Shown here: piece after piece, positions 51,375-61,855 of the stretch
How the letters are laid out: each line of letters begins with the position of its first letter
Position numbering within the stretch: position 1 is the stretch's first letter
DNA from: Pirellula sp.
GTDB taxonomy: Bacteria > Planctomycetota > Planctomycetia > Pirellulales > PNKZ01
NCBI GenBank assembly: GCA_013822735.1
Contig: PNKZ01000001.1
Span: 806,001-870,000, forward strand
Reading direction: 5' to 3'
DNA: 64,000 bases
Notes under the pieces: generated by a model
Database searches by the model: none
The model's input: only the letters and a program-made list of their open reading frames with translations
Told to the model about the DNA's origin: nothing
Program-made: the position numbers and the translations under genes

Positions 51375-53876
51375 TTACTTCTTGCCCTTCGGCTTTTCAT
51401 CATCTTTCTTCGGCTTGTCGTTGCCGGGGGCGGGCGCTTGCGGAGCGGGGCGTTCGGTCTTCGGGGTGCGTGCTTCCGGTTCCGGGCGGGTGCGCTCGGC
51501 CGGAGCCTTCGGCGACTGAATCGACTGTCGCTGTGGCGGCGCTTCCCGCGTTTGCGGAGGGCGCTGCTCGGTGGGCCGCTCGCGCGACGGTTGCGGACCT
51601 GCCTGGGACGTTCTTTGCGTCGGCAATTGCGGCACGGCCTGGCGATTGGGGGCAGGCGCCTCGGTCTGCGGCGGACGTTGTTGCGGGCGACTCATTTGCG
51701 GCGGTTGGCTATCGCTGCGACGCGCGGCGTTGCCACGAGGGTCGTTCGGTACGTTTTGACGCGGATCGCGCCCCGGCGTTGCTTCCGGCGCACTTCCCGT
51801 CGGACGATTGCCGTTTCCTCGGGCATTCGGAGCCGGCAAGTTGCGTGGCACATTCGCGGGCGGAACGACGACCGGCGGTGTCGTGGTCGGCGGCGTCACC
51901 GTGGGAATCGTGGCGTCGGGCTTCGGCGTCACCGTCGGAATCGTCGAGTTCGCCGGCGGCGTGACGTTCGGCAAGTTCGTGCGCTCGGGTCGACCGTTGC
52001 GCGACGGCACCTCTCCCGAAGGCATCGGACCGGAACGCGGGTCGCGCGGCCGATCGTTCGGAGCAGGCAACGTGCGCGGGACATCCGCATTGGGGACATT
52101 GGCTCCGGGAACGTTTGCGTTGGGCGTGTTCGGAGCGCTCGGTTTAGGCACATCGCGGCCCGGCATGTTCGGACGCGGCGTGTTGGGGTTGGGCGTGTTG
52201 GGGTTGGGTTCGCCGACGGCGATGCCCGGGCGCGGACCTGTCGGGCGCGGCTCACCAACGTTCGGTTCCGCAGGTCGGGCGACGTCGGGCTTATTCGACC
52301 CGGCGCGCGGACCTGGTTGCGGGCCTGCACTTGGCGGCGGCGTTTCCGGTGCCGGACCCTTGGCAATGGCCGGGCCGGCATCGGGAAGCGTGAGCTGCGG
52401 CAGCTTGCCGGGGCCACGACCGTCTCCGGGAGTACGATCTCCGCCGGGACGGTTGCCCGGCGTCGGGCGAACGTCGCCGGGTTGCGGCTGATTGCCGGCG
52501 CCCGGCGCGTTTACGGCCACGCGCGCTTCCGACTCGACGCGTGCCCGCTGGTCGCGACTGAACTGCTTATTGTCCTTCGCTCGTTGCTCAAATGTTTGCC
52601 GCTGCTGCGGATCAATACGACGAACTTCCTGCGAGATCAGCTTGGGGTTGGCAGCTATGTCGCTCAGCGATACGGCCAGAATATTCGAGCGATCGTCGCG
52701 ATCGCGTCCGTCAGGTCCGCGATCGTTGGGCCCGCGACCATCCGGACCACGGTCATTCGGTCCGCGGTTGTCGGGCCCGCGACCGTCGCGTTGTTGCTGC
52801 TCCCACCAACGTCGTTGCTCTTCGTAGGTGTGGCGCGGCCGGGCATCACGGTTGGCGGCGTAGTAGTCGTAGCGCCGGCGATAGTCGTTCATCCATTGGG
52901 GATTGCTCTGGCCGTAACGCGCGGAGTTGTAGGCGAAGAACGGATCGTACCAGCCGCGGCGCTGCGTCGAGGAAAGTCGCGACGAGGCGTACCACGGGTA
53001 GTAGCCGCCGGCCGTATAGCGCGGGTCGTAGTAGTCGCCGAAGTAGTAACTGCCGTACGACGGTCGCGCGAAGAGCGAGTAGAGCAACTGCGTCGTCGAG
53101 ATGAGTACCGACGGCGAATAGCTAAAGCCGGGTTGCGCGTAGACGCGGTTCTGAAAGTAGACCGGCGCGAAGATCATGCCGCGTGTTTGCGGCGGGTAAT
53201 CCCAATAGCCGACGTTGTAAACGTAGCCGCCGGGGGTCCAATTGTAATAGGACGGAGTCCAAACCCATTGCTCTTGCGAGGCGGCCCAATAACCGGGCTG
53301 CCAAACGTACCGCGCATCGACCGTCACCCAATTGCCGGGAACCCAGAAGTAGTTGGGGCCGGGAGCCGGCGAACTAGGGCCGGCCTCGAGGCTGGCCGGC
53401 GGCGCCGGAAGATAATTGACTTGTTGCACCGTGGTCGGCGACCAGAAACCGGAGACGCGCTGAAAGCCGCCGGGGGCGTCGATCCAGTAGCCGGCAATCC
53501 AGCGATGCTCCGGAGGAGGAGTGCGCCATAGCCCGCTCACCCACAGGAAATCTTGTCGTTCGTCGTCCCAGGCCCAATAGCCGCCGATCCATTGGGCGTT
53601 GGGGTCGGAGGTCGAAACTTCCGGCGCCAGTTCTTCAATGTCGGCCGGCGGTTGCGTCGGCACGATCACGCTCACGACGGGATCGTTCCCCACGGGCACG
53701 GCGAACGCCTCATGCACGGGGCCGCGTGTAAGGACATCGACGTCTTGCACCACCACGTCGCCGCTCGGTGCTTGCGCGAAAGCGCGCGGCTCGTTGAGCA
53801 AGCCGACGGCAACCCACGCGGCAGCCGTGAGTACGCTGCCGACGGCAATTCGACGCCTGGAAATATTTGACGACAT
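51375..53876 (-). CDS. Large secreted protein with YXWGXW-like repeats and Pro/Arg-rich tail
   Basis: The 833-residue protein has an N-terminal signal (RRIAVGSVLTAAAWVAVGLL). Residues about 95-250 contain repeated W-x-x-G-Y/F-W units such as WIGGYWAWDD, WVSGLW, WIAGYWID, RVSGFW, WVPGNW and WQPGYW, resembling the YXWGXW repeat family. A Tyr-rich stretch follows. After about 365 come GPNDRGPDGR repeats, a short helical segment (DPQQRQTFEQRAKDNKQFS) and a long Pro/Asn/Arg-rich tail with NPNTP repeats ending in basic KPKGKK. It could be a surface or matrix protein. The ATG at 53876 has AGGAGAAG upstream. Confidence 0.85.
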   Translation of the reverse strand: MSSNISRRRIAVGSVLTAAAWVAVGLLNEPRAFAQAPSGDVVVQDVDVLTRGPVHEAFAVPVGNDPVVSVIVPTQPPADIEELAPEVSTSDPNAQWIGGYWAWDDERQDFLWVSGLWRTPPPEHRWIAGYWIDAPGGFQRVSGFWSPTTVQQVNYLPAPPASLEAGPSSPAPGPNYFWVPGNWVTVDARYVWQPGYWAASQEQWVWTPSYYNWTPGGYVYNVGYWDYPPQTRGMIFAPVYFQNRVYAQPGFSYSPSVLISTTQLLYSLFARPSYGSYYFGDYYDPRYTAGGYYPWYASSRLSSTQRRGWYDPFFAYNSARYGQSNPQWMNDYRRRYDYYAANRDARPRHTYEEQRRWWEQQQRDGRGPDNRGPNDRGPDGRGPNDRGPDGRDRDDRSNILAVSLSDIAANPKLISQEVRRIDPQQRQTFEQRAKDNKQFSRDQRARVESEARVAVNAPGAGNQPQPGDVRPTPGNRPGGDRTPGDGRGPGKLPQLTLPDAGPAIAKGPAPETPPPSAGPQPGPRAGSNKPDVARPAEPNVGEPRPTGPRPGIAVGEPNPNTPNPNTPRPNMPGRDVPKPSAPNTPNANVPGANVPNADVPRTLPAPNDRPRDPRSGPMPSGEVPSRNGRPERTNLPNVTPPANSTIPTVTPKPDATIPTVTPPTTTPPVVVPPANVPRNLPAPNARGNGNRPTGSAPEATPGRDPRQNVPNDPRGNAARRSDSQPPQMSRPQQRPPQTEAPAPNRQAVPQLPTQRTSQAGPQPSRERPTEQRPPQTREAPPQRQSIQSPKAPAERTRPEPEARTPKTERPAPQAPAPGNDKPKKDDEKPKGKK
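52185..52208 (+). repeat. G-quadruplex-prone tandem repeat inside the YXWGXW gene
   Basis: On the plus strand four runs (GGGG, GGG, GGGG, GGG) are spaced by TT, CGTGTT and TT, the compact G3+N1-7 pattern. It results from the 15-bp tandem repeat coding NPNTP on the minus strand, so the G-rich strand is the template strand. Confidence 0.65.
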
Positions 53877-54299
53877 GACCACTTCTCCTGGACCGGCCTC
53901 TGCTGAACCGGCAACATGCGGCAGCGCCGCGTCGTTCCATGTGAACAACGCGTGCGCGGTGCGCAGAATCGCAGCGAAGATGTCGATGCAGATGACGTGC
54001 CGTGGTCTAACGATTCCGTTAGGTGATGGCTGGAACGCCTGTTTTTATGCGATTCGGCCCTGAATATTCTCGCAACCATCACACCGACCGAATGCGTTCC
54101 TCATCCGAGCTGTCGTCGGTTCGACTTGTCCGTCGCACGGTCACGCGACAGAGGGGCGAATAATCGATCAGGAAATTGGTCGACGATGGAACTTTTTCCG
54201 CTCGCGCGTGGTAAAACCACGTAGCCCGACCGCGCCGCGCATCCGGCAAGGTCGTCACGTCCGTCGCGCCCCGATTCATTTCCACTTCGCGATCAATCT
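53877..54299. other. Divergent intergenic region
   Basis: The 423-bp gap separates the YXWGXW gene (minus) from the copper-oxygenase fusion (plus). It contains two small inverted repeats: CTAACG/CGTTAG at 54007-54022 with a 4-nt loop and CGTGGT/ACCACG at 54207-54221 with an AAA loop. An open frame of 68 codons at 54079-54285 (minus) has no ribosome site and no recognisable domain; I do not call it a gene. No convincing promoter stands out. Confidence 0.5.
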
Positions 54300-56438
54300 A
54301 TGCCCCTGGGATCTGCTTGCCGGTCCGCACGCGTGCGGCTCGCCCTCTTTTCTGTTTCGCTTCTTGTGCTGGCCGTATCGCAGAGCCAGGGTCATCGCGA
54401 CCTGGCCGCGAAGGCTCCGGAGGAGAAGTCGCCGGAAGCGGCCGTGCGACAAGCCCCCAAGGTATTGAAGCCGGGCGACCACGGCGTCGGCCGGCAGACT
54501 CGCGATACGAGCTTCAAGGATCTGTCCGGCCGCATGCATCAACTCGGGGCGCTTTGCCGGGACCGGATCTTGGTCGTCGCGGCGACCGGCACCTCGTGCC
54601 CGTTGAGCAAGAAGTACGTGCCGTCGTTGGTCGACTTGGCCAAGCAGTTCGACGGCAAGAACGTGCGCTGGCTGCTCGTGAACGCGACGAAGACGGACGA
54701 AGCCGCGGCGATGCAAGCCGACCTGGCGCGGTTCGCCGAGTTTGCGAAGGACGACGCCGTCGTCTACGTGCACGACGAAGCGGGAGTGCTCGCCCAAGCG
54801 GTCGGCCTGCGGACGACGACCGACGTCGTTGTGCTCGACGGCGCTCGGACGGTGCTCTATCACGGCGCAGTTGACGATCAATACGGCCTCGGCTACGGGA
54901 AGGACGAACCGAAGCGACGCTACTTGGCCGACGCGCTGACGAGCATTTTGGCGGGGCGCAAACTTGCGATCGCGGCGACCGACGCTCCCGGCTGTGCGCT
55001 GGAAGGGCCGTCGGAGTCGGCCGGAAAAAGTAACACTTCCATCACGTACCACAACCGCATCTCGCGGATCATTCAAAACAATTGTCTGGAATGCCATCGT
55101 CCGAAAGGCTCGGCGCCGTTTTCGTTGGCGACGTACGAAGAAGTCGACGCCCACGCGCCGATGATTGAGCAAGTCGTTCGAGGCGGCATCATGCCGCCCT
55201 GGTTCGCCGCGAAGTCTGCCGAAGTGAAGCACGCCGGTTGGGCGAACGAACGCTCGCTCGCCGCGGCGGATCAGGCCGATCTCTTAAATTGGATCGCCGC
55301 CAAGCGCCCGCGCGGCGACGAAGCCGACGCCCCGCGTCCCGTCGAATTCTCCGACGATTGGACCATCGGCAAGCCCGACGCCGTGTTCGGGTTCAAAGAC
55401 CCTGTGCAGATCCCGGCGACGGGAGTCATGCCGTATAAGAACATTTACGTCGACACGAACCTGCCGGAAGGGCGCTGGGTGCAAGCGATCGAGATTCGAC
55501 CCGGCAATCGGGAAGTCGTGCATCACGTGCTGGTGTTTGTAGCGACCCCCAGCGACACGGCGGGCGACATCGAGCGCCAAGAAAGCGGCACCGCCGGCTT
55601 TTGGGGCATCTACGTGCCGGGCAACAGTGCGTTGGTATATCCCGAAGGAATGGCGAAGGTCTTGCCGGCCGGCGCGAAGTTGCGATTTCAAATGCACTAC
55701 ACTCCCAACGGCACGGCGACGACCGACCGGACGGAGATCGGCGTGATCTACGCGAAGAAGCCGCCCGTGCACGACGTGCGCGTGACCGGCGTCGCCAACC
55801 TGCGTTTGAACATTCCGCCGCGCGACGCCAACTTCCGCTCGCTCGGCGTGTTGCGATTGCCGTACGACGTCGAGGTGCTGAGCTTCTTGCCGCACATGCA
55901 TCTCCGCGGCAAGGCATGCCGGTACGACGTGCAAACTTCCGACGGCACACAGTTGCTGCTCGACATTCCGCGCTACGATTTCAATTGGCAACTCAACTAC
56001 CAACTGGCGGAACGCGTTCCGCTGAAGCGCGGCGACGTACTGCAGTTCACTGCCTGGTACGACAACAGCGAAGGGAACCCGGCGAACCCCGACCCGTCGA
56101 AGAACGTGCGCTGGGGTCAGCAAACCTACGACGAAATGCAGCTCGGCTATGTCGAGTACATTGTGCCGGGCGACGAGCCCGGCGTGATGGGTCCGCGCAG
56201 CAAGACCTCGAAGCTTGCGGCGCTGGCGGCGCAGAGCTTGTTTCATCGGTTCGACACCGACGACGACGGCTCCGTCTCGCGCGAAGAACTCGACGTTGCG
56301 TTGAAGGAGATGCCGCGCGTGAAAGAAAACCCGAAGCTGGTGGAAGCGCTCTTCGAGCGCGGTGACGTCGATCGCGATAAGAAGCTGAGCCGCGCGGAAT
56401 TCGAACGGCTGCGCTCGGCCTTGGCCGAAGGGCGCTAA
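54300..56438 (+). CDS. Redoxin / cytochrome c / copper type II monooxygenase-like / EF-hand fusion protein
   Basis: The 712-residue exported protein (signal in VRLALFSVSLLVLAVSQSQG) has four parts. Residues about 50-220 are a redoxin/thioredoxin-like domain with SCPLSKKY (Cys100, no second Cys in the motif). Residues 262-266 are CLECH, a haem c site followed by a PSCyt-like region (ATYEEVDAHAPMIEQVV). Residues about 370-630 resemble the two-domain PHM core: HH (408-409) and H466 match copper site H, and H532, H534 and M613 (in YDEMQ) match copper site M. Two EF-hand loops are at 652-663 and 689-700. It may be a haem-fed copper monooxygenase; activity is inference. It is followed by the PSD1-DUF1501 genes. 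Confidence 0.85.
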   Translation: MPLGSACRSARVRLALFSVSLLVLAVSQSQGHRDLAAKAPEEKSPEAAVRQAPKVLKPGDHGVGRQTRDTSFKDLSGRMHQLGALCRDRILVVAATGTSCPLSKKYVPSLVDLAKQFDGKNVRWLLVNATKTDEAAAMQADLARFAEFAKDDAVVYVHDEAGVLAQAVGLRTTTDVVVLDGARTVLYHGAVDDQYGLGYGKDEPKRRYLADALTSILAGRKLAIAATDAPGCALEGPSESAGKSNTSITYHNRISRIIQNNCLECHRPKGSAPFSLATYEEVDAHAPMIEQVVRGGIMPPWFAAKSAEVKHAGWANERSLAAADQADLLNWIAAKRPRGDEADAPRPVEFSDDWTIGKPDAVFGFKDPVQIPATGVMPYKNIYVDTNLPEGRWVQAIEIRPGNREVVHHVLVFVATPSDTAGDIERQESGTAGFWGIYVPGNSALVYPEGMAKVLPAGAKLRFQMHYTPNGTATTDRTEIGVIYAKKPPVHDVRVTGVANLRLNIPPRDANFRSLGVLRLPYDVEVLSFLPHMHLRGKACRYDVQTSDGTQLLLDIPRYDFNWQLNYQLAERVPLKRGDVLQFTAWYDNSEGNPANPDPSKNVRWGQQTYDEMQLGYVEYIVPGDEPGVMGPRSKTSKLAALAAQSLFHRFDTDDDGSVSREELDVALKEMPRVKENPKLVEALFERGDVDRDKKLSRAEFERLRSALAEGR

Positions 56439-56571
56439 GCCGATTCGGGAGCGATTCCGCGGGTTTCCCAGGCGTTCTCACTGCGACAGTTCGGCCGGCG
56501 TTGATGCATTCGCGGTTTCATGCACGCGCCGTCTCAAATAATGCCCTGCCGCCGGGCGTCCTTGCCGTGTA

Positions 56572-56596
56572 AGAAACGTGCGCACGTTTCTACAAT
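56572..56596 (+). promoter_or_regulatory. Perfect 20-bp palindrome overlapping a -10 element
   Basis: AGAAACGTGC (56572-56581) is followed at once by its reverse complement GCACGTTTCT (56582-56591), and the last T starts TACAAT (56591-56596), a good -10. The start codon is 80 bp downstream. A clear -35 is missing, so an activator or alternative sigma factor site is possible. Confidence 0.5.
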
Positions 56597-56605
56597 GGAG
56601 GGGGC

Positions 56606-56626
56606 GGGACGGATCACAGCCGTCCC
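56606..56626 (+). promoter_or_regulatory. Leader hairpin before the PSD1 gene
   Basis: GGGACGG (56606-56612) and CCGTCCC (56620-56626) pair around a 7-nt loop, followed by CGTTTTG. It is between the predicted -10 and the start codon and might act as an attenuator or simply stabilise the leader. Confidence 0.3.
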
Positions 56627-56675
56627 CGTTTTGCCTCCACTCTCGCAGGGGGCGTCTTCCACGGAAGTCTTTCTG

Positions 56676-59600
56676 ATGCCGGCATTGTCTCACGGCCGCG
56701 GCCTACGCGGTGCGTCGTTCGTTTACGTTTCGGTCTTCGTCATGACGTTCGCCGCGGGCCGGGACGTATCGTCCGCCGAGCCGGCCGCGCCGCAACAGAA
56801 GGCCCGCGCGCAAACCGAGTTCTTCGAATCGCACATCCGTCCCGTGCTCATCGAGCAGTGCGTCGCGTGCCACGGTCCGCAGAAGCAGGAGTCGGGCCTC
56901 AGGCTCGATTCGCGCGACGCCGTGTTTAAAGGCGGCGCCGGCGGCGCGGCGGTCGTGCCGGGTCGACCGGAAGAGAGCCTGTTGATCGAAGCGCTCCGCC
57001 ACGAAGGGCTGGAGATGCCGCCGGAGAAGAAGCTCGACGATGCCGTCGTCGCCGACTTTGAAACTTGGGTTCGCAGCGGCGCGTTTTGGCCGGCGGGCGA
57101 TCGACCCGTCGCGGCGGCGCTCGGCGACCAGGTTGCGATCTTCCAGCAAGCAAAAACGCATTGGGCCTTCCAACCGGTGCGCAAGCCCGAGCCGCCGACG
57201 GTACGTGACGCCGCCTGGGCGCGCACGCCGATCGACCGCTTCGTCCTCGCCAAGCTCGAAGCGCACGGTTTGCACCCGTCGCCGGAAGCCGATGCCGCCG
57301 TGCTTTGCCGCAGAGTTTATTTCGATCTAGTCGGCCTGCCGCCGTCGCCGGAAGAGGTGGATGCCTTCGTTCGCGCATACACCGGCTCCTCGTCACCCAA
57401 TCTCCCCGTCTCCCCTGCCGGCCAAGACGAAGAGACTCGGAGAAGGGGAGAGAGGGAGAAGGCATATGAGGCGTTGATCGACAAGCTCCTCGCCTCGCCG
57501 CACTACGGCGAGCGCTGGGGCCGGCATTGGCTCGATGTGGCCCGCTACGCCGACACGCGCGACTTCATTGCCGCCGGCATCGATCGACGCTATCCGTATG
57601 CGTATACCTATCGCGATTGGGTCGTGAAAGCCTTTAACGACGATCTGCCGTACGACGAGTTCATCCGTGCCCAACTCGCGGCCGATTTCTACGCGAGCGA
57701 TAAGCAATCGCCGTCGCTGGCGGCGCTCGGCTTGCTCACCGTCGGTTCCCGGTTTCGCAACAACGAGCAGGAGCAGATCGCCGACCGCATCGACGTCGTC
57801 ACTCGCGGCTTCCTCGGCTTCTCCGTGGCGTGCGCCCGTTGCCACGATCACAAGTACGATCCGATTCCGACCGCCGATTACTATTCGCTCTACGGCGTGT
57901 TTGCCAGTTGCCAAGAGCCCGCGGAGTTCCCGCTGATCGCCGGCATGATTCCGCCGCCGGATCTGCTGGCCGACTATGAACAGGCTCGCCAGGAGAAAGT
58001 GAAAGCGCTCGACGACTACGCCGCCGGCCTGCGCGACACGGCCGAGGCCGATCTCATGGAGAAGATCGATCAGTATTTGCTCGGCTACTACGAACTGAGC
58101 GTCACGAAAAAAGAATCGATTCGCGGACTCATCTCCAGCCGCAAGCTCAAAGAAACGGCGATGACGCCGCTCGCCGCGAACCTCGAGGCCGCGCGGAAGT
58201 TGCCGAAGTGGCGCAGCGATCCGGTGCTCGGCCCGCTCTTTCATCTGCTGACCGTAATCGACAAAAACTTCGACGGGCACCTGCGGAAGATCGTCAAGTT
58301 CGGCACGACCGGGGATGAAAAGCCTACCGAGGTCAACGCCGTCGTGCTGGCGACGCTTCGCGACGCGCAGCCGAAGACGAAGAGCGACGTGGTCGCGGCG
58401 TACGGCAAGCTGCTGCTCGAAGCCTCGCAAAAGTGGGCCGCCTTGCGTATGCAGTCGCCCTCGGCCGATCGTCTGCCCGACGCCGATTGGGAAGCGATTC
58501 GCGCAACGATCGTTGCCGAAGACGGGCCGTTTGCCTTGGAGCCGAAGGCTTGCTTACAAGCGTCGCGTTTGTTGGGCAACGGCCGCACGACGCTCGCAAA
58601 ACTAGAGAACGAAATCAAGGAAGTCGACATCACGCATCCCGGCGCCCCGGCGCGAGCGTTTGCGATTGAAGACAAGCCGAAGCCGGTGAACCCCGTGATC
58701 TTTCTGCGCGGCGACAGCGCTCGGCGCGGCGATCCGGTACCGCGGCGCTTTTTAGAGGTGCTCGCCGGCAAAGAGCGCACGCCGTTCGCCGTCGGCAGCG
58801 GCCGCAAAGAGCTCGCCGAAGCAATCGCCGACCCCAAGAACCCGCTCACCGCGCGGGTCTACGTCAATCGTCTTTGGCTCCACCACTTCGGCGCAGGAAT
58901 CGTCGATACGCCGGCCGACTTCGGGTTCCGCAGCGATCCGCCGAGCCATCCCGAATTGCTCGATTGGCTCGCGGCGACGTTCGTCGAACAAGGCTGGTCG
59001 ACGAAGCGGATGCATCGCGAAATTCTGCTCTCCAGCGCCTATCGGCAAACTTCCGAAGTGCCCGCCGCGGCCGGCGAAAAATCTCCGGCGGCCGTCGATC
59101 CTGAGAACCGATTGCTCTGGCGGGCCAATCGTCGCCGGCTCGATTTCGAAGCCCTGCGCGACGCGATGCTCGCCGTCTCCGGCAAGCTCGACCCCGCCAT
59201 CGGCGGTCGGGCCGTCGAACTCAGCGCCGAGCCGTTCTCCTGGCGGCGCACGATCTATGGCTTCGTCGATCGACTGAACCTCGATCCGGTTTTTTCGACC
59301 TTCGACTTCGCCTCGCCCGAGGTGAGCACGCCGGAGCGGGCCGTTACGCTGGTGCCGCAACAAGCGCTCTTCGGGATGAACCATCCGTTCGTCATCGAGC
59401 AAGCCCGCGCCCTTTGTGCGTCGCCGGAATTTGCGCAGGCCCGCGACGACGATGCCCGGACCAAGGTGCTTTATCGCCGCGTGTTCGATCGCGCGCCGAC
59501 TCAAGGGGAACTTGACCTCACGCGAAGTTTTCTGGTGGCGGCGGCCGACGCCGAACGCAACTCCGGCGACCGTCGTCAAGTCTGGCGCTACGGCTATGGC

Positions 59601-60167
59601 GCGGTCGACGCTTCGGCCGACGACGCCGACCGGTTCCACGAGCTCACGTTCTTCGACGGCAAGAACTACCAAGGAAGCAAAGACTATCCCGATCCGCGCA
59701 TCGGCCACGTCCGGCTTTCGGCCGTCGGCGGTCACCCGGGCCGGAGCCAAGAGTTCGCGACCATTCGTCGCTGGACCGCGCCGGTCGACGGCGACATGAC
59801 GATCTCCGGCACGCTCGCGCACCTGCGCGACAACGGCGACGGCATCCGCGCCCGCATCGTCACCGGCGACGGCCGGACGCTCGGCGAGTGGAAGCTCCTC
59901 AACGACAAGGCGGCGACCGACGTGGAGCGTATCTCGGTTCGCGCCGGCGACGTCATCGATTTCATCGTCGATTGCCGCGCGAAGCCGACGGCCGACGCCT
60001 TCACCTGGGCTCCCGTCTTGCGACAGCTCGACCAGCCGAAACAAGGCGCGCCGCTCGTCTGGAGCGCCAACGCCGATTTCGCCGCCCCACCGCCCCCGCT
60101 GCTCACGGCCTGGGAACAATGTGCCCAAGCATTGCTGCTTACGAACGAGTTTTGGTTTGTCGATTGA
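56676..60167 (+). CDS. PSCyt1-DUF1549-DUF1553 protein (planctomycete cytochrome C domain protein)
   Basis: The 1163-residue protein has a signal peptide (FVYVSVFVMTFAAG), a haem c domain PSCyt1 with CVACH at 62-66 and LRLDSRDAVFKGG, then DUF1549 (about 170-400) with DRFVLAKLEAHGLHPSPEAD and FDLVGLPPSPEEVDAFV, and a second Cys-x2-Cys-His, CARCHDHKYDP (about residue 386). DUF1553 (about 710-1000) has RVYVNRLWLHHFGAGIV and RPRLDFEALRDAMLAVSG-like text. The last 150 residues have a carbohydrate-binding-like character. Function is unknown, but these proteins are exported and typically paired with DUF1501 proteins, as here. The ATG at 56676 has GGAAG upstream. Confidence 0.92.
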   Translation: MPALSHGRGLRGASFVYVSVFVMTFAAGRDVSSAEPAAPQQKARAQTEFFESHIRPVLIEQCVACHGPQKQESGLRLDSRDAVFKGGAGGAAVVPGRPEESLLIEALRHEGLEMPPEKKLDDAVVADFETWVRSGAFWPAGDRPVAAALGDQVAIFQQAKTHWAFQPVRKPEPPTVRDAAWARTPIDRFVLAKLEAHGLHPSPEADAAVLCRRVYFDLVGLPPSPEEVDAFVRAYTGSSSPNLPVSPAGQDEETRRRGEREKAYEALIDKLLASPHYGERWGRHWLDVARYADTRDFIAAGIDRRYPYAYTYRDWVVKAFNDDLPYDEFIRAQLAADFYASDKQSPSLAALGLLTVGSRFRNNEQEQIADRIDVVTRGFLGFSVACARCHDHKYDPIPTADYYSLYGVFASCQEPAEFPLIAGMIPPPDLLADYEQARQEKVKALDDYAAGLRDTAEADLMEKIDQYLLGYYELSVTKKESIRGLISSRKLKETAMTPLAANLEAARKLPKWRSDPVLGPLFHLLTVIDKNFDGHLRKIVKFGTTGDEKPTEVNAVVLATLRDAQPKTKSDVVAAYGKLLLEASQKWAALRMQSPSADRLPDADWEAIRATIVAEDGPFALEPKACLQASRLLGNGRTTLAKLENEIKEVDITHPGAPARAFAIEDKPKPVNPVIFLRGDSARRGDPVPRRFLEVLAGKERTPFAVGSGRKELAEAIADPKNPLTARVYVNRLWLHHFGAGIVDTPADFGFRSDPPSHPELLDWLAATFVEQGWSTKRMHREILLSSAYRQTSEVPAAAGEKSPAAVDPENRLLWRANRRRLDFEALRDAMLAVSGKLDPAIGGRAVELSAEPFSWRRTIYGFVDRLNLDPVFSTFDFASPEVSTPERAVTLVPQQALFGMNHPFVIEQARALCASPEFAQARDDDARTKVLYRRVFDRAPTQGELDLTRSFLVAAADAERNSGDRRQVWRYGYGAVDASADDADRFHELTFFDGKNYQGSKDYPDPRIGHVRLSAVGGHPGRSQEFATIRRWTAPVDGDMTISGTLAHLRDNGDGIRARIVTGDGRTLGEWKLLNDKAATDVERISVRAGDVIDFIVDCRAKPTADAFTWAPVLRQLDQPKQGAPLVWSANADFAAPPPPLLTAWEQCAQALLLTNEFWFVD

Positions 60168-60190
60168 GAACAATTTTCCATCGTCTGTAG

Positions 60191-60212
60191 GGAACGCCCT
60201 CCGTGGCGTTCC
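60191..60212. repeat. Palindrome with CTCCGT loop
   Basis: GGAACGCC (60191-60198) and GGCGTTCC (60205-60212) pair around CTCCGT, 24 bp after the PSD1 stop. The centre CTCCGTGGCG also occurs in the 17-mer at 22930. It may act as a terminator for the PSD1 gene. Confidence 0.5.
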
Positions 60213-60264
60213 GCGGCGCTTCGTCGAGCCGTAAGGCCGACGTGTCTGAAACGTTGATACTTAA

Positions 60265-60399
60265 ATAACCAATGACCACGCACCAAATACCAAACAAATT
60301 CCAATCACAAAAATTCCAATGATCCTTGCGGCGCACATTCGGTCATTGGTATTTGTTCCTTGTTTGGAACTTGGTGCTTGATTATTGGTCATTCCAAAA
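60265..60399. repeat. AT-rich imperfect inverted repeat before the DUF1501 gene
   Basis: A left arm with CCAATGACC (60269-60277) and CCAAATACCAAACAAATTCC faces a right arm with GGTCATTGG (60341-60349), TTGTTTGGAAC and ATTGGTCATTCC up to 60395. Base composition is far from that of the surrounding genes. The repeat fills nearly all of the space between the PSD1 and DUF1501 genes. Confidence 0.65.
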
Positions 60400-60415
60400 A
60401 TGGCTTGCTAACTCT

Positions 60416-61855
60416 ATGACCCCCAATCTCTCCCGTCGCGATCTTCTCAAGCATTGCGGCTTCGGTTTCGGCGCCGTCGCCTTGAGCAGCTTGCTGAACG
60501 AAATGGGCTACGCCGCCCCGGCCGCCGCCGACGCCGCTTCCTCTGCGGGCCTGCCGACGCCCCTCGGTTCATCGCTCGCGCCGAAGGCCCCGCACTTCGC
60601 TCCCAAGGCGAAGCGCGTGATTCACCTCTTCATGAACGGCGGCCCGTCGCAGATCGACACATTCGATCCGAAGCCCGCCCTGGAGAAGTATCACGGCAAG
60701 GTTCTGAAAGATGAACTCAAGGGAGATAAACGCATCGGCGGGGCCGCGTTTGCCTCGCCGTTCAAGTTCGCCAAGCATGGTCAGGCCGGCATTGAAATCA
60801 GCGAGCTTTTTCCGAACATCGCCAAGCACGCCGACGACCTCTGCATCATTCGCTCCACGCAAACCGACGTGCCGAACCACGAGCCCGGCCTGCTCATGAT
60901 GAACTGCGGCGACATCAGCCGGGCCGTGCCGAGCATGGGAGCCTGGACGCTCTACGGCCTCGGCACCGAGAACCAAAGCCTCCCCGGCTTCGTCGTGATG
61001 TGTCCCGCCGGCCTGCCGACGGCCCAAGGAAGCAATTGGCGCAACGCGTTCTTGCCCGGCATCTATCAAGGCACCTACGTCGACTCGCAGCAGACCGATT
61101 CCGCGAAGCTCGTCGCCAACATTCGCAACGACGCCATTTTGCCGAAACAGCAACGCCGCCAGCTCGACTACTTGCAGCAGCTCAACGAAATGCACCGCGC
61201 CCGTCGGGCCGACGACGAACAACTCGACGCCCGCATCCAATCGCTCGAGCTCGCCTTCCGCATGCAGCGAGAGGCCGGCGAAGCGTTCGACGTTTCCCAA
61301 GAGCCGAAGCATGTGCTCGAACAATACGGCGACACCGTCCACGGCCGGCAAACGCTCATCGCCCGGCGTTTGGCGGAGCGCGGCGTCCGCTACGTGCAGG
61401 TCTACCACGGAGCGGGCCAGCCGTGGGATTCGCACTCGAACGTCGCCGACGCTCACAAACGTCTAGCCCGCGAAAGCGATCAGCCGATCGCGGCGCTTCT
61501 GGCCGACCTGAAGCAGCGCGACATGCTCCAAGACACGCTGGTGCTCTGGAGCGGCGAGATGGGACGCACGCCGACCGTGCAACTTCCGGTCGGCCCGAAG
61601 CCGGGACGCGACCACCATCACGACGGCTTCACCGTCTGGATGGCCGGCGGCGGCTCGCGCGGCGGCTACGTGCACGGCTCGACCGACGAACTCGGCCTGC
61701 ACGTGGCGACCGATCCCGTGCACGTGCACGACCTGCACGCGACGATGCTCCGCCTGCTCGGCTTCGACCACGAGAAGCTCACGTTCCGCTACGGCGGCCG
61801 CGACTTCCGCCTCACCGACGTCCACGGCCGCGTCGTGAAAGAGCTGATGGCGTAA
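60416..61855 (+). CDS. TAT-exported DUF1501 protein
   Basis: The 479-residue protein has a twin-arginine signal LSRRDLLKHCGFGFGAVALS (residues 6-25). The DUF1501 body has KRVIHLFMNGGPSQIDTFDPKP, STQTDVPNHEPGLLMMNCG, VYHGAGQPWDSHSN, LWSGEMGRTPTVQ and GRDHHHDGFTVWMAGGG. The fold is related to alkaline-phosphatase/sulfatase-like proteins, but no enzyme activity is proven. It is the usual partner of PSD1 proteins, encoded just upstream. The ATG at 60416 fits the TAT signal; earlier Met codons fall within the inverted repeat. Confidence 0.94.
   Translation: MTPNLSRRDLLKHCGFGFGAVALSSLLNEMGYAAPAAADAASSAGLPTPLGSSLAPKAPHFAPKAKRVIHLFMNGGPSQIDTFDPKPALEKYHGKVLKDELKGDKRIGGAAFASPFKFAKHGQAGIEISELFPNIAKHADDLCIIRSTQTDVPNHEPGLLMMNCGDISRAVPSMGAWTLYGLGTENQSLPGFVVMCPAGLPTAQGSNWRNAFLPGIYQGTYVDSQQTDSAKLVANIRNDAILPKQQRRQLDYLQQLNEMHRARRADDEQLDARIQSLELAFRMQREAGEAFDVSQEPKHVLEQYGDTVHGRQTLIARRLAERGVRYVQVYHGAGQPWDSHSNVADAHKRLARESDQPIAALLADLKQRDMLQDTLVLWSGEMGRTPTVQLPVGPKPGRDHHHDGFTVWMAGGGSRGGYVHGSTDELGLHVATDPVHVHDLHATMLRLLGFDHEKLTFRYGGRDFRLTDVHGRVVKELMA

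Follow-up and report, generated by a model that had tools for sequence, protein, structure and literature searches.

The copper monooxygenases closest to the protein described here are peptidylglycine alpha-hydroxylating monooxygenase (PHM), which makes amidated peptides, and dopamine beta-monooxygenase (DBH), which makes noradrenaline. Haem domains that feed a copper enzyme are known from the three-domain copper nitrite reductases and from the pairs of cellobiose dehydrogenase with LPMO, but the copper folds of these systems are unrelated to the one considered here, and they provide an analogy only. In PHM, as one study lays out, each copper receives one reducing equivalent from ascorbate, the two sites, CuH and CuM, lie 11 angstroms apart, and the passage of electrons between these distant coppers is a live topic (PMC6123673). 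According to a survey from 2022, PHM proteins belong to eukaryotes (PMC8812541).

In the window, a stretch of 64,000 nucleotides from the genome of the planctomycete Pirellula sp., we identified a gene (Table 1) for a single chain that carries a redoxin domain, a haem c domain and a core of the PHM/DBH type. We favor, with a probability of about 0.6, the reading of its product as a bacterial dicopper monooxygenase of the PHM/DBH superfamily that is exported and brings its own inlet for electrons. A PHM/DBH-type core joined to haem c or to a redoxin was not found described in the open-access literature, where the papers that carry the Pfam names or accessions concern, by title, animals or machine learning; the domain order itself is presumably already visible in public databases.

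Table 1. Features of the gene for the putative haem-linked dicopper monooxygenase (positions in the window)
Feature	Position	Strand	Basis or remark
Whole gene, 712 aa	54300..56438	+	ATG start; export signal, redoxin, haem c domain, dicopper monooxygenase core, EF-hand pair
Probable export signal, residues ~1-31	54300..54392	+	Judged by eye from sequence
Redoxin / TlpA-like domain, residues 60-239	54477..55016	+	Pfam Redoxin, VIA, profile matches
Cys100, conserved redoxin cysteine	54597..54599	+	Alignment of relatives
Cys232, second conserved redoxin cysteine	54993..54995	+	Alignment of relatives
Haem c domain, residues 240-345	55017..55334	+	Cytochrome_CBB3 below cut-off; VIA to PccH
CLECH, residues 262-266, haem c attachment motif	55083..55097	+	Kept 81/81, 49/50
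Met298 in MPPW, candidate distal haem ligand	55191..55193	+	Kept >=79/81, 49/50
Dicopper monooxygenase core, residues ~358-626	55371..56177	+	Foldseek, VIA, Cu2_monoox_C 524-621
His408-His409, predicted CuH ligands = PHM His107-His108	55521..55526	+	Aligned to PHM VHH
His466, predicted CuH ligand = PHM His172	55695..55697	+	Aligned to PHM VHYG
His532-x-His534, predicted CuM ligands = PHM His242, His244	55893..55901	+	Aligned to PHM HTH
Met613, predicted CuM ligand = PHM Met314	56136..56138	+	Aligned to PHM DEM
EF-hand pair, residues 644-703, optional in family	56229..56408	+	Pfam EF-hand_7

The initial annotation of this gene, made from the letters alone, had named a CXXCH motif, six His and Met residues and two EF-hand loops, and all of these were recovered by script in the 712-residue ORF: C262-LEC-H266, H408-H409, H466, H532-M-H534, M613 in YDEMQ, and loops starting at residues 652 and 689. 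The protein is probably secreted or otherwise exported, judging from its N-terminus. Pfam assigns Redoxin to residues 68-193 (29 bits against a cut-off of 26.6), a sub-threshold cytochrome c to 254-302 (E 0.022), Cu2_monoox_C (PF03712) to 524-621 (27 against 23 bits) and an EF-hand_7 pair to 644-703 (38 against 30 bits), so that of the two copper profiles the annotation had proposed, the C-terminal one passes its cut-off, whereas Cu2_monooxygen (PF01082) gives no match in the window protein. No NCBIfam family exceeded its cut-off in this protein. The motifs go beyond chance, since Redoxin and Cu2_monoox_C pass their Pfam cut-offs and the motifs are kept although the members differ elsewhere.

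The annotation knew of no described enzyme with this build. The fusion does not stand alone: it belongs to a bacterial family that is real, large and conserved. Relatives are encoded in 411 stretches of the species genomes scanned, and the 80 best were aligned with the window protein (n = 81; 43, 33, 28 and 28 of these relatives entered alignments A1, A2, A3 and A4, respectively). The 80 named loci belong mostly to Planctomycetota, then to Verrucomicrobiota (Opitutae, Pedosphaera and others), with one in Armatimonadota. The peptide patterns behind these 80 include the motifs CLECH, MHY and DEMQ, and conservation among them is therefore partly built in; for this reason, a second, profile-based sample of the phylum was taken, which is less affected by such circularity. 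Of the 149 genomes in this sample, 72 have a match at 1e-20, 56 of them with a copper core and the other 16 with the redoxin only or with redoxin and haem parts; the tally is a minimum because only seven candidates were scored in most genomes. Loci of this sample, less one fragment (G103:C23), together with the two paralogues in the window genome, supplied the 50 copper ORFs that were tested.

These paralogues bring the copper members of the window genome to three: the window protein, L084 (655 aa, with a redoxin) and L085 (518 aa, without). Both paralogues keep all six copper ligands; in L084 the ligands align although neither Pfam copper domain is matched at E<=0.01, and L085 stands just above the cut-off for Cu2_monoox_C (23.1 against 23 bits), with Cu2_monooxygen matched below its own. 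Matches at E<=0.001 occur in all 40 kin genomes, the window genome included, at 1 to 26 per genome, redoxin-only matches being counted and the best match in G017, G023 and G030 reaching only about 1e-4. More than 15 matches each were seen in G007 (21), G018 (17), G024 (26) and G026 (26), genomes of the same order as the window genome.

The relationship of the copper core to PHM and DBH, which the annotation had proposed from the order and spacing of the ligands, is firm as far as sequence and a predicted model can make it: fold, homology and all six ligands agree. The AlphaFold2 model of the window protein (44 sequences; pLDDT 84.2, pTM 0.78), searched as a whole against the PDB with Foldseek, has human DBH as its best match (4zel, E 1.3e-11), followed by the redoxin chain 3u5r (E 9.6e-11), with rat PHM at rank 4 (3mll, from E 1.5e-10). 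In VIA comparisons, the model aligns with DBH 4zel over 262 residues (Z 19.3), and its residues 358-631 overlay PHM 6ala over 251 residues (Z 18.6, rmsd 3.3). In this predicted model, the core has the double jelly-roll fold of the copper type II monooxygenase superfamily (PHM/DBH/MOX). At the level of sequence, the relationship becomes clear only when divergent members are brought in. PHM is absent among the best 60 of 158 PDB matches to the window sequence alone and does not appear at E<=10 with the narrow profile A2, for which hhalign reaches E 0.082 against PHM over 110 columns of the C-terminal half only; the broader A5, in contrast, made of the window core and 29 others that are 29-44% identical to it (truncated cores L139 and L150 left out), retrieves both PHM (8.3e-10) and DBH (2.8e-8) from the PDB, the ligands falling in register, and aligns with rat PHM at E 3.1e-12 over 218 columns (hhalign). 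The PHM ligands fall on HH, the H of LQVHY, HxH and DEM of the family, and the 16 invariant columns of A5 include all six. At E<=0.1, Cu2_monoox_C is detected in 34/34 sequences of A2 and 22/30 of A5, and Cu2_monooxygen in 11/30 of A5; across 199 genomes of the phylum, the latter profile produces three matches at E<=0.001, none of which passes the Pfam cut-off and all of which lie inside members of this family.

Had several of the ligands varied among relatives, the assignment would have been in trouble. They do not: the five His are kept in 81/81 sequences of the first set and in 50/50 copper ORFs of the second, and Met613 in 80/81, the exception being a gap, and, together with Glu612, in 49/50, the remaining ORF being truncated. 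Among the close relatives, at least 79 of 81 also keep Y617 and Q464, which correspond to PHM Tyr318 and Gln170, the latter beside a CuH ligand and not kept in all divergent cores. Conversely, PHM Arg240 and Asn316, which bind the glycine-extended peptide, are not kept and align with L530 and L615, so the substrate is probably not a peptidylglycine, and peptide amidation (the PHM reaction, EC 1.14.17.3) is unlikely. The core of PHM holds conserved disulfides; C540 is the single cysteine within residues 345-626, and such disulfides are therefore absent from the window protein. Thus, the protein shares with PHM (rat 1phm, 1opm and 6ala) the two-domain core with six ligands in the same order and differs from it in being bacterial, in lacking the disulfides and in carrying haem c and redoxin on the chain. 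With DBH (4zel), it shares a core placed behind an N-terminal extra domain, which in DBH is a DOMON domain, in contrast to the redoxin and haem c found here.

A fold and a set of ligands could outlive the reaction they once served, and the core might instead be a copper-dependent peroxygenase, a reductase or a sensor. One study describes PHM as accepting H2O2 in place of O2 and a reductant (PMC6123673). A redoxin that handles peroxide would fit such a chemistry, and no constant neighbor family points to a substrate. Nevertheless, the six ligands are all retained as in the hydroxylases, and we consider a change of reaction quite improbable, and the least likely of the alternatives weighed here.

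The second, near-constant element is the haem c motif, which the annotation had placed on the same chain as the copper core and which indeed stays there in almost all members examined: CXXCH (CLECH in the window protein) is kept in 81/81 of the first set and in 49/50 of the second. Met298 is kept in no fewer than 79 of the 81 sequences of the first set and in 49/50 profile-sampled copper ORFs, and the motif and the Met occur together in 49 of these 50. Cytochrome_CBB3 is detected at E<=0.1 in all 29 members tested (best 5e-8), the window domain itself scoring below the Pfam cut-off (E 0.0012, 19.6 against 27 bits). Modelled alone (pLDDT 80.8), the domain has no significant Foldseek match, cytochrome c6 being the best at E 1.5, and a search of the PDB with its sequence profile returned nothing credible. 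The monohaem cytochrome PccH is the only one of 16 chains with a VIA Z>=2 to the domain (Z 8.0, 75 residues, rmsd 1.8), a score near the level that, according to the note accompanying the tool, models without a clear match also reach, so that the resemblance may reflect a common arrangement. We take the domain to be a monohaem cytochrome c with His266 and Met298 as ligands, and infer the binding of Met298 to the haem. The one copper ORF that departs from the pattern is L135:1759-2778 (340 aa, six ligands kept), where no haem part was found in the fetched stretch. The haem domain is thus the near-constant partner of the copper core, and the redoxin is optional.

The redoxin presents another facet of the story. 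That a thioredoxin-like domain shares the chain, as the annotation had it, is borne out by the Pfam score given above and by a VIA alignment with 3u5r (Z 20.3, 170 residues, rmsd 2.6). A profile of the domain retrieves from the PDB 2ywi, 3u5r and 2cvb first, a group listed as uncharacterized or by probable function only, and then the thioredoxin family, including ResA and TlpA. The resemblance to all of these extends to fold and sequence; in contrast to them, the window redoxin is fused to haem and copper domains and contains no CxxC pair (GTSCPLS), its conserved cysteines being C100 and C232. Cys100-Pro101 is kept in 81/81 sequences and Cys232 in at least 79 of 81. In the wider collection, Cys100 is present in 32/33 fused or stand-alone, 11/11 adjacent and 1/1 C-terminal redoxins, and Cys232 in 32/33, 10/11 and 1/1, respectively, the misses being gaps. 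CPxC occurs in the redoxin parts of L095-L099 and L101-L104, so a dithiol redoxin exists in some lineages. A plasmid collection yielded three weak matches only, to the redoxin part, in haloarchaea.

The partnership is a loose one. From the profile-based sample, 30 copper loci without an N-terminal redoxin were examined (L123-L152, that is, all such rows except the one fragment, with L152 being the L085 of the window genome). Eleven have a separate adjoining redoxin gene, upstream or downstream of the copper ORF, one (L140) has a C-terminal redoxin, and 18 have none; among the 20 flanked on each side by 700 bases or more, the redoxin is fused or adjacent in 11 and lacking in nine. L140 (5001 bases) is permuted within one ORF, in the order haem c, copper core, EF-hand and redoxin. 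When 75 cores are placed in a tree, one half holds all but one of the 46 N-fused members (45), and those whose redoxin is separate, C-fused or absent lie mostly in the other (23/29), the N-fused label requiring five changes; this is a quick tree with a midpoint root, weak support for the deepest split and L084 on a long branch, and it leaves out L107 (core and redoxin in separate ORFs with a stop between them) and L135. With the redoxin fused, adjacent or absent across loci, and the pairing of haem and copper constant, the redoxin looks functionally linked yet dispensable.

These observations bear on the suggestion that the thioredoxin-like domain supplies electrons. A simple feed of the thioredoxin type is doubtful, since only C100 and C232 are conserved and there is no CxxC. 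The idea could be kept in another form, with the redoxin as the first relay, electrons passing from thiols to C100/C232, on to haem c and then to copper, so that haem and copper make up one enzyme. The recurrent association, be it by N-terminal fusion, C-terminal fusion in L140 or adjacency (11 of the 20 well-flanked loci), and the conservation of both cysteines are what such a relay would lead one to expect, but transfer from thiol to haem is uncommon, CPxC is confined to the few loci named above, and nine of the 20 loci show no redoxin nearby, so we deem it unlikely. Alternatively, the redoxin could serve assembly in the manner of TlpA, ResA or Sco, keeping the cysteines of CXXCH reduced so that haem can be attached, or loading copper; ascorbate, or some other small reductant, would then still drive the enzyme, and the haem would be used otherwise, for example, in redox sensing. 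ResA and TlpA, which are among its profile relatives, act in the maturation of cytochrome c and of copper sites. Yet, the best matches are to the 2ywi/3u5r/2cvb group described above, maturation does not require that factor and client be fused time and again, and the near-universal haem domain would be left unexplained; this scheme, too, appears to us improbable.

We return, then, to a haem inlet. Domains that share one chain need not exchange electrons, but with a haem c domain as the near-constant neighbor of the core, entry of electrons from haem to copper is the simplest reading; the wiring of haem c as an inlet that replaces ascorbate is likely, and we infer the haem-to-copper step. Electrons of a periplasmic donor would enter one at a time at the haem (His266/Met298) and pass to CuH (His408, His409 and His466), and CuM (His532, His534 and Met613) would bind O2 and, with the second electron, hydroxylate a substrate, the haem route standing in for ascorbate. 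The redoxin would be an auxiliary thiol protein rather than the main electron donor, which would help to mature the CXXCH or the copper sites or would remove peroxide released by uncoupled turnover, roles that are likelier than an electron feed given the lack of CxxC. Extended to the whole family, this would amount to a large radiation, in planctomycetes and related groups including Verrucomicrobiota, of dicopper hydroxylases wired to the periplasmic chain through a fused haem c and equipped with a detachable redoxin, a broader picture that we put forward tentatively, with the odds slightly against it. In this picture, a superfamily that has been examined as a eukaryotic one dependent on ascorbate would gain a new mode of electron supply and perhaps an origin in bacteria. 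The number of copies suggests many substrates, and the family would supply numerous candidates for C-H hydroxylation. A haem that spectroscopy can follow would allow electron entry to be watched directly in this bacterial branch, and a near-constant haem-copper pair next to a movable redoxin offers a natural test of which partner matters.

The EF-hands, in which the annotation was also right, are optional in the family. By a rough regular expression, an EF-like motif is C-terminal in 39 of the 81 sequences, N-terminal in 34 and found at neither end in 23, and EF-hands were not adopted as part of the general mechanism.

Gene neighborhoods gave no lead to the function. Clustering of 577 ORFs from the 80 loci, the family's own included, revealed no constant partner; the largest other families, named by eye, are a beta-lactamase-like hydrolase (12 loci) and an ECF-type sigma factor (11 loci). 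A cluster of 114 ORFs in 75 loci hinted at tandem copies in the flanks, which were rejected because, on checking with a profile, each of 74 loci had a single copper ORF.

In the window, a PSCyt1-PSCyt2-PSD1 protein (1215 aa) and then a DUF1501 protein are encoded downstream (56520-61855, +), starting 82 bases after the gene. Haem-motif PSCyt proteins are frequent in some PVC genomes, according to one study (PMC5615132); they resemble the window protein in bearing haem motifs and differ from it in the families of their haem domains, and no copper core was found in the downstream neighbor. Relatives of these neighbors lie near 12 of 80 loci for DUF1501 and near eight of 80 for PSCyt. With 68 DUF1501 matches across its 6.88 Mb, the window genome has roughly one every 100 kb, a density that predicts some 8 or 9 in the 861,562 bases of the 80 loci, and an operon with DUF1501 and PSCyt is, therefore, not claimed. 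On the other side, at 51375-53948 (-), lies the gene for a protein of 857 aa in which Pro, Arg and Gly are abundant and which contains a WXXGXW repeat; it has a relative at E<=1e-20 in one of the 80 loci (L018). Farther upstream, the segment 47911-51336 (+) encodes a long catalase, whose C-terminal catalase domain gives a weak match to DJ-1/PfpI, and then a DAO-type FAD oxidoreductase.
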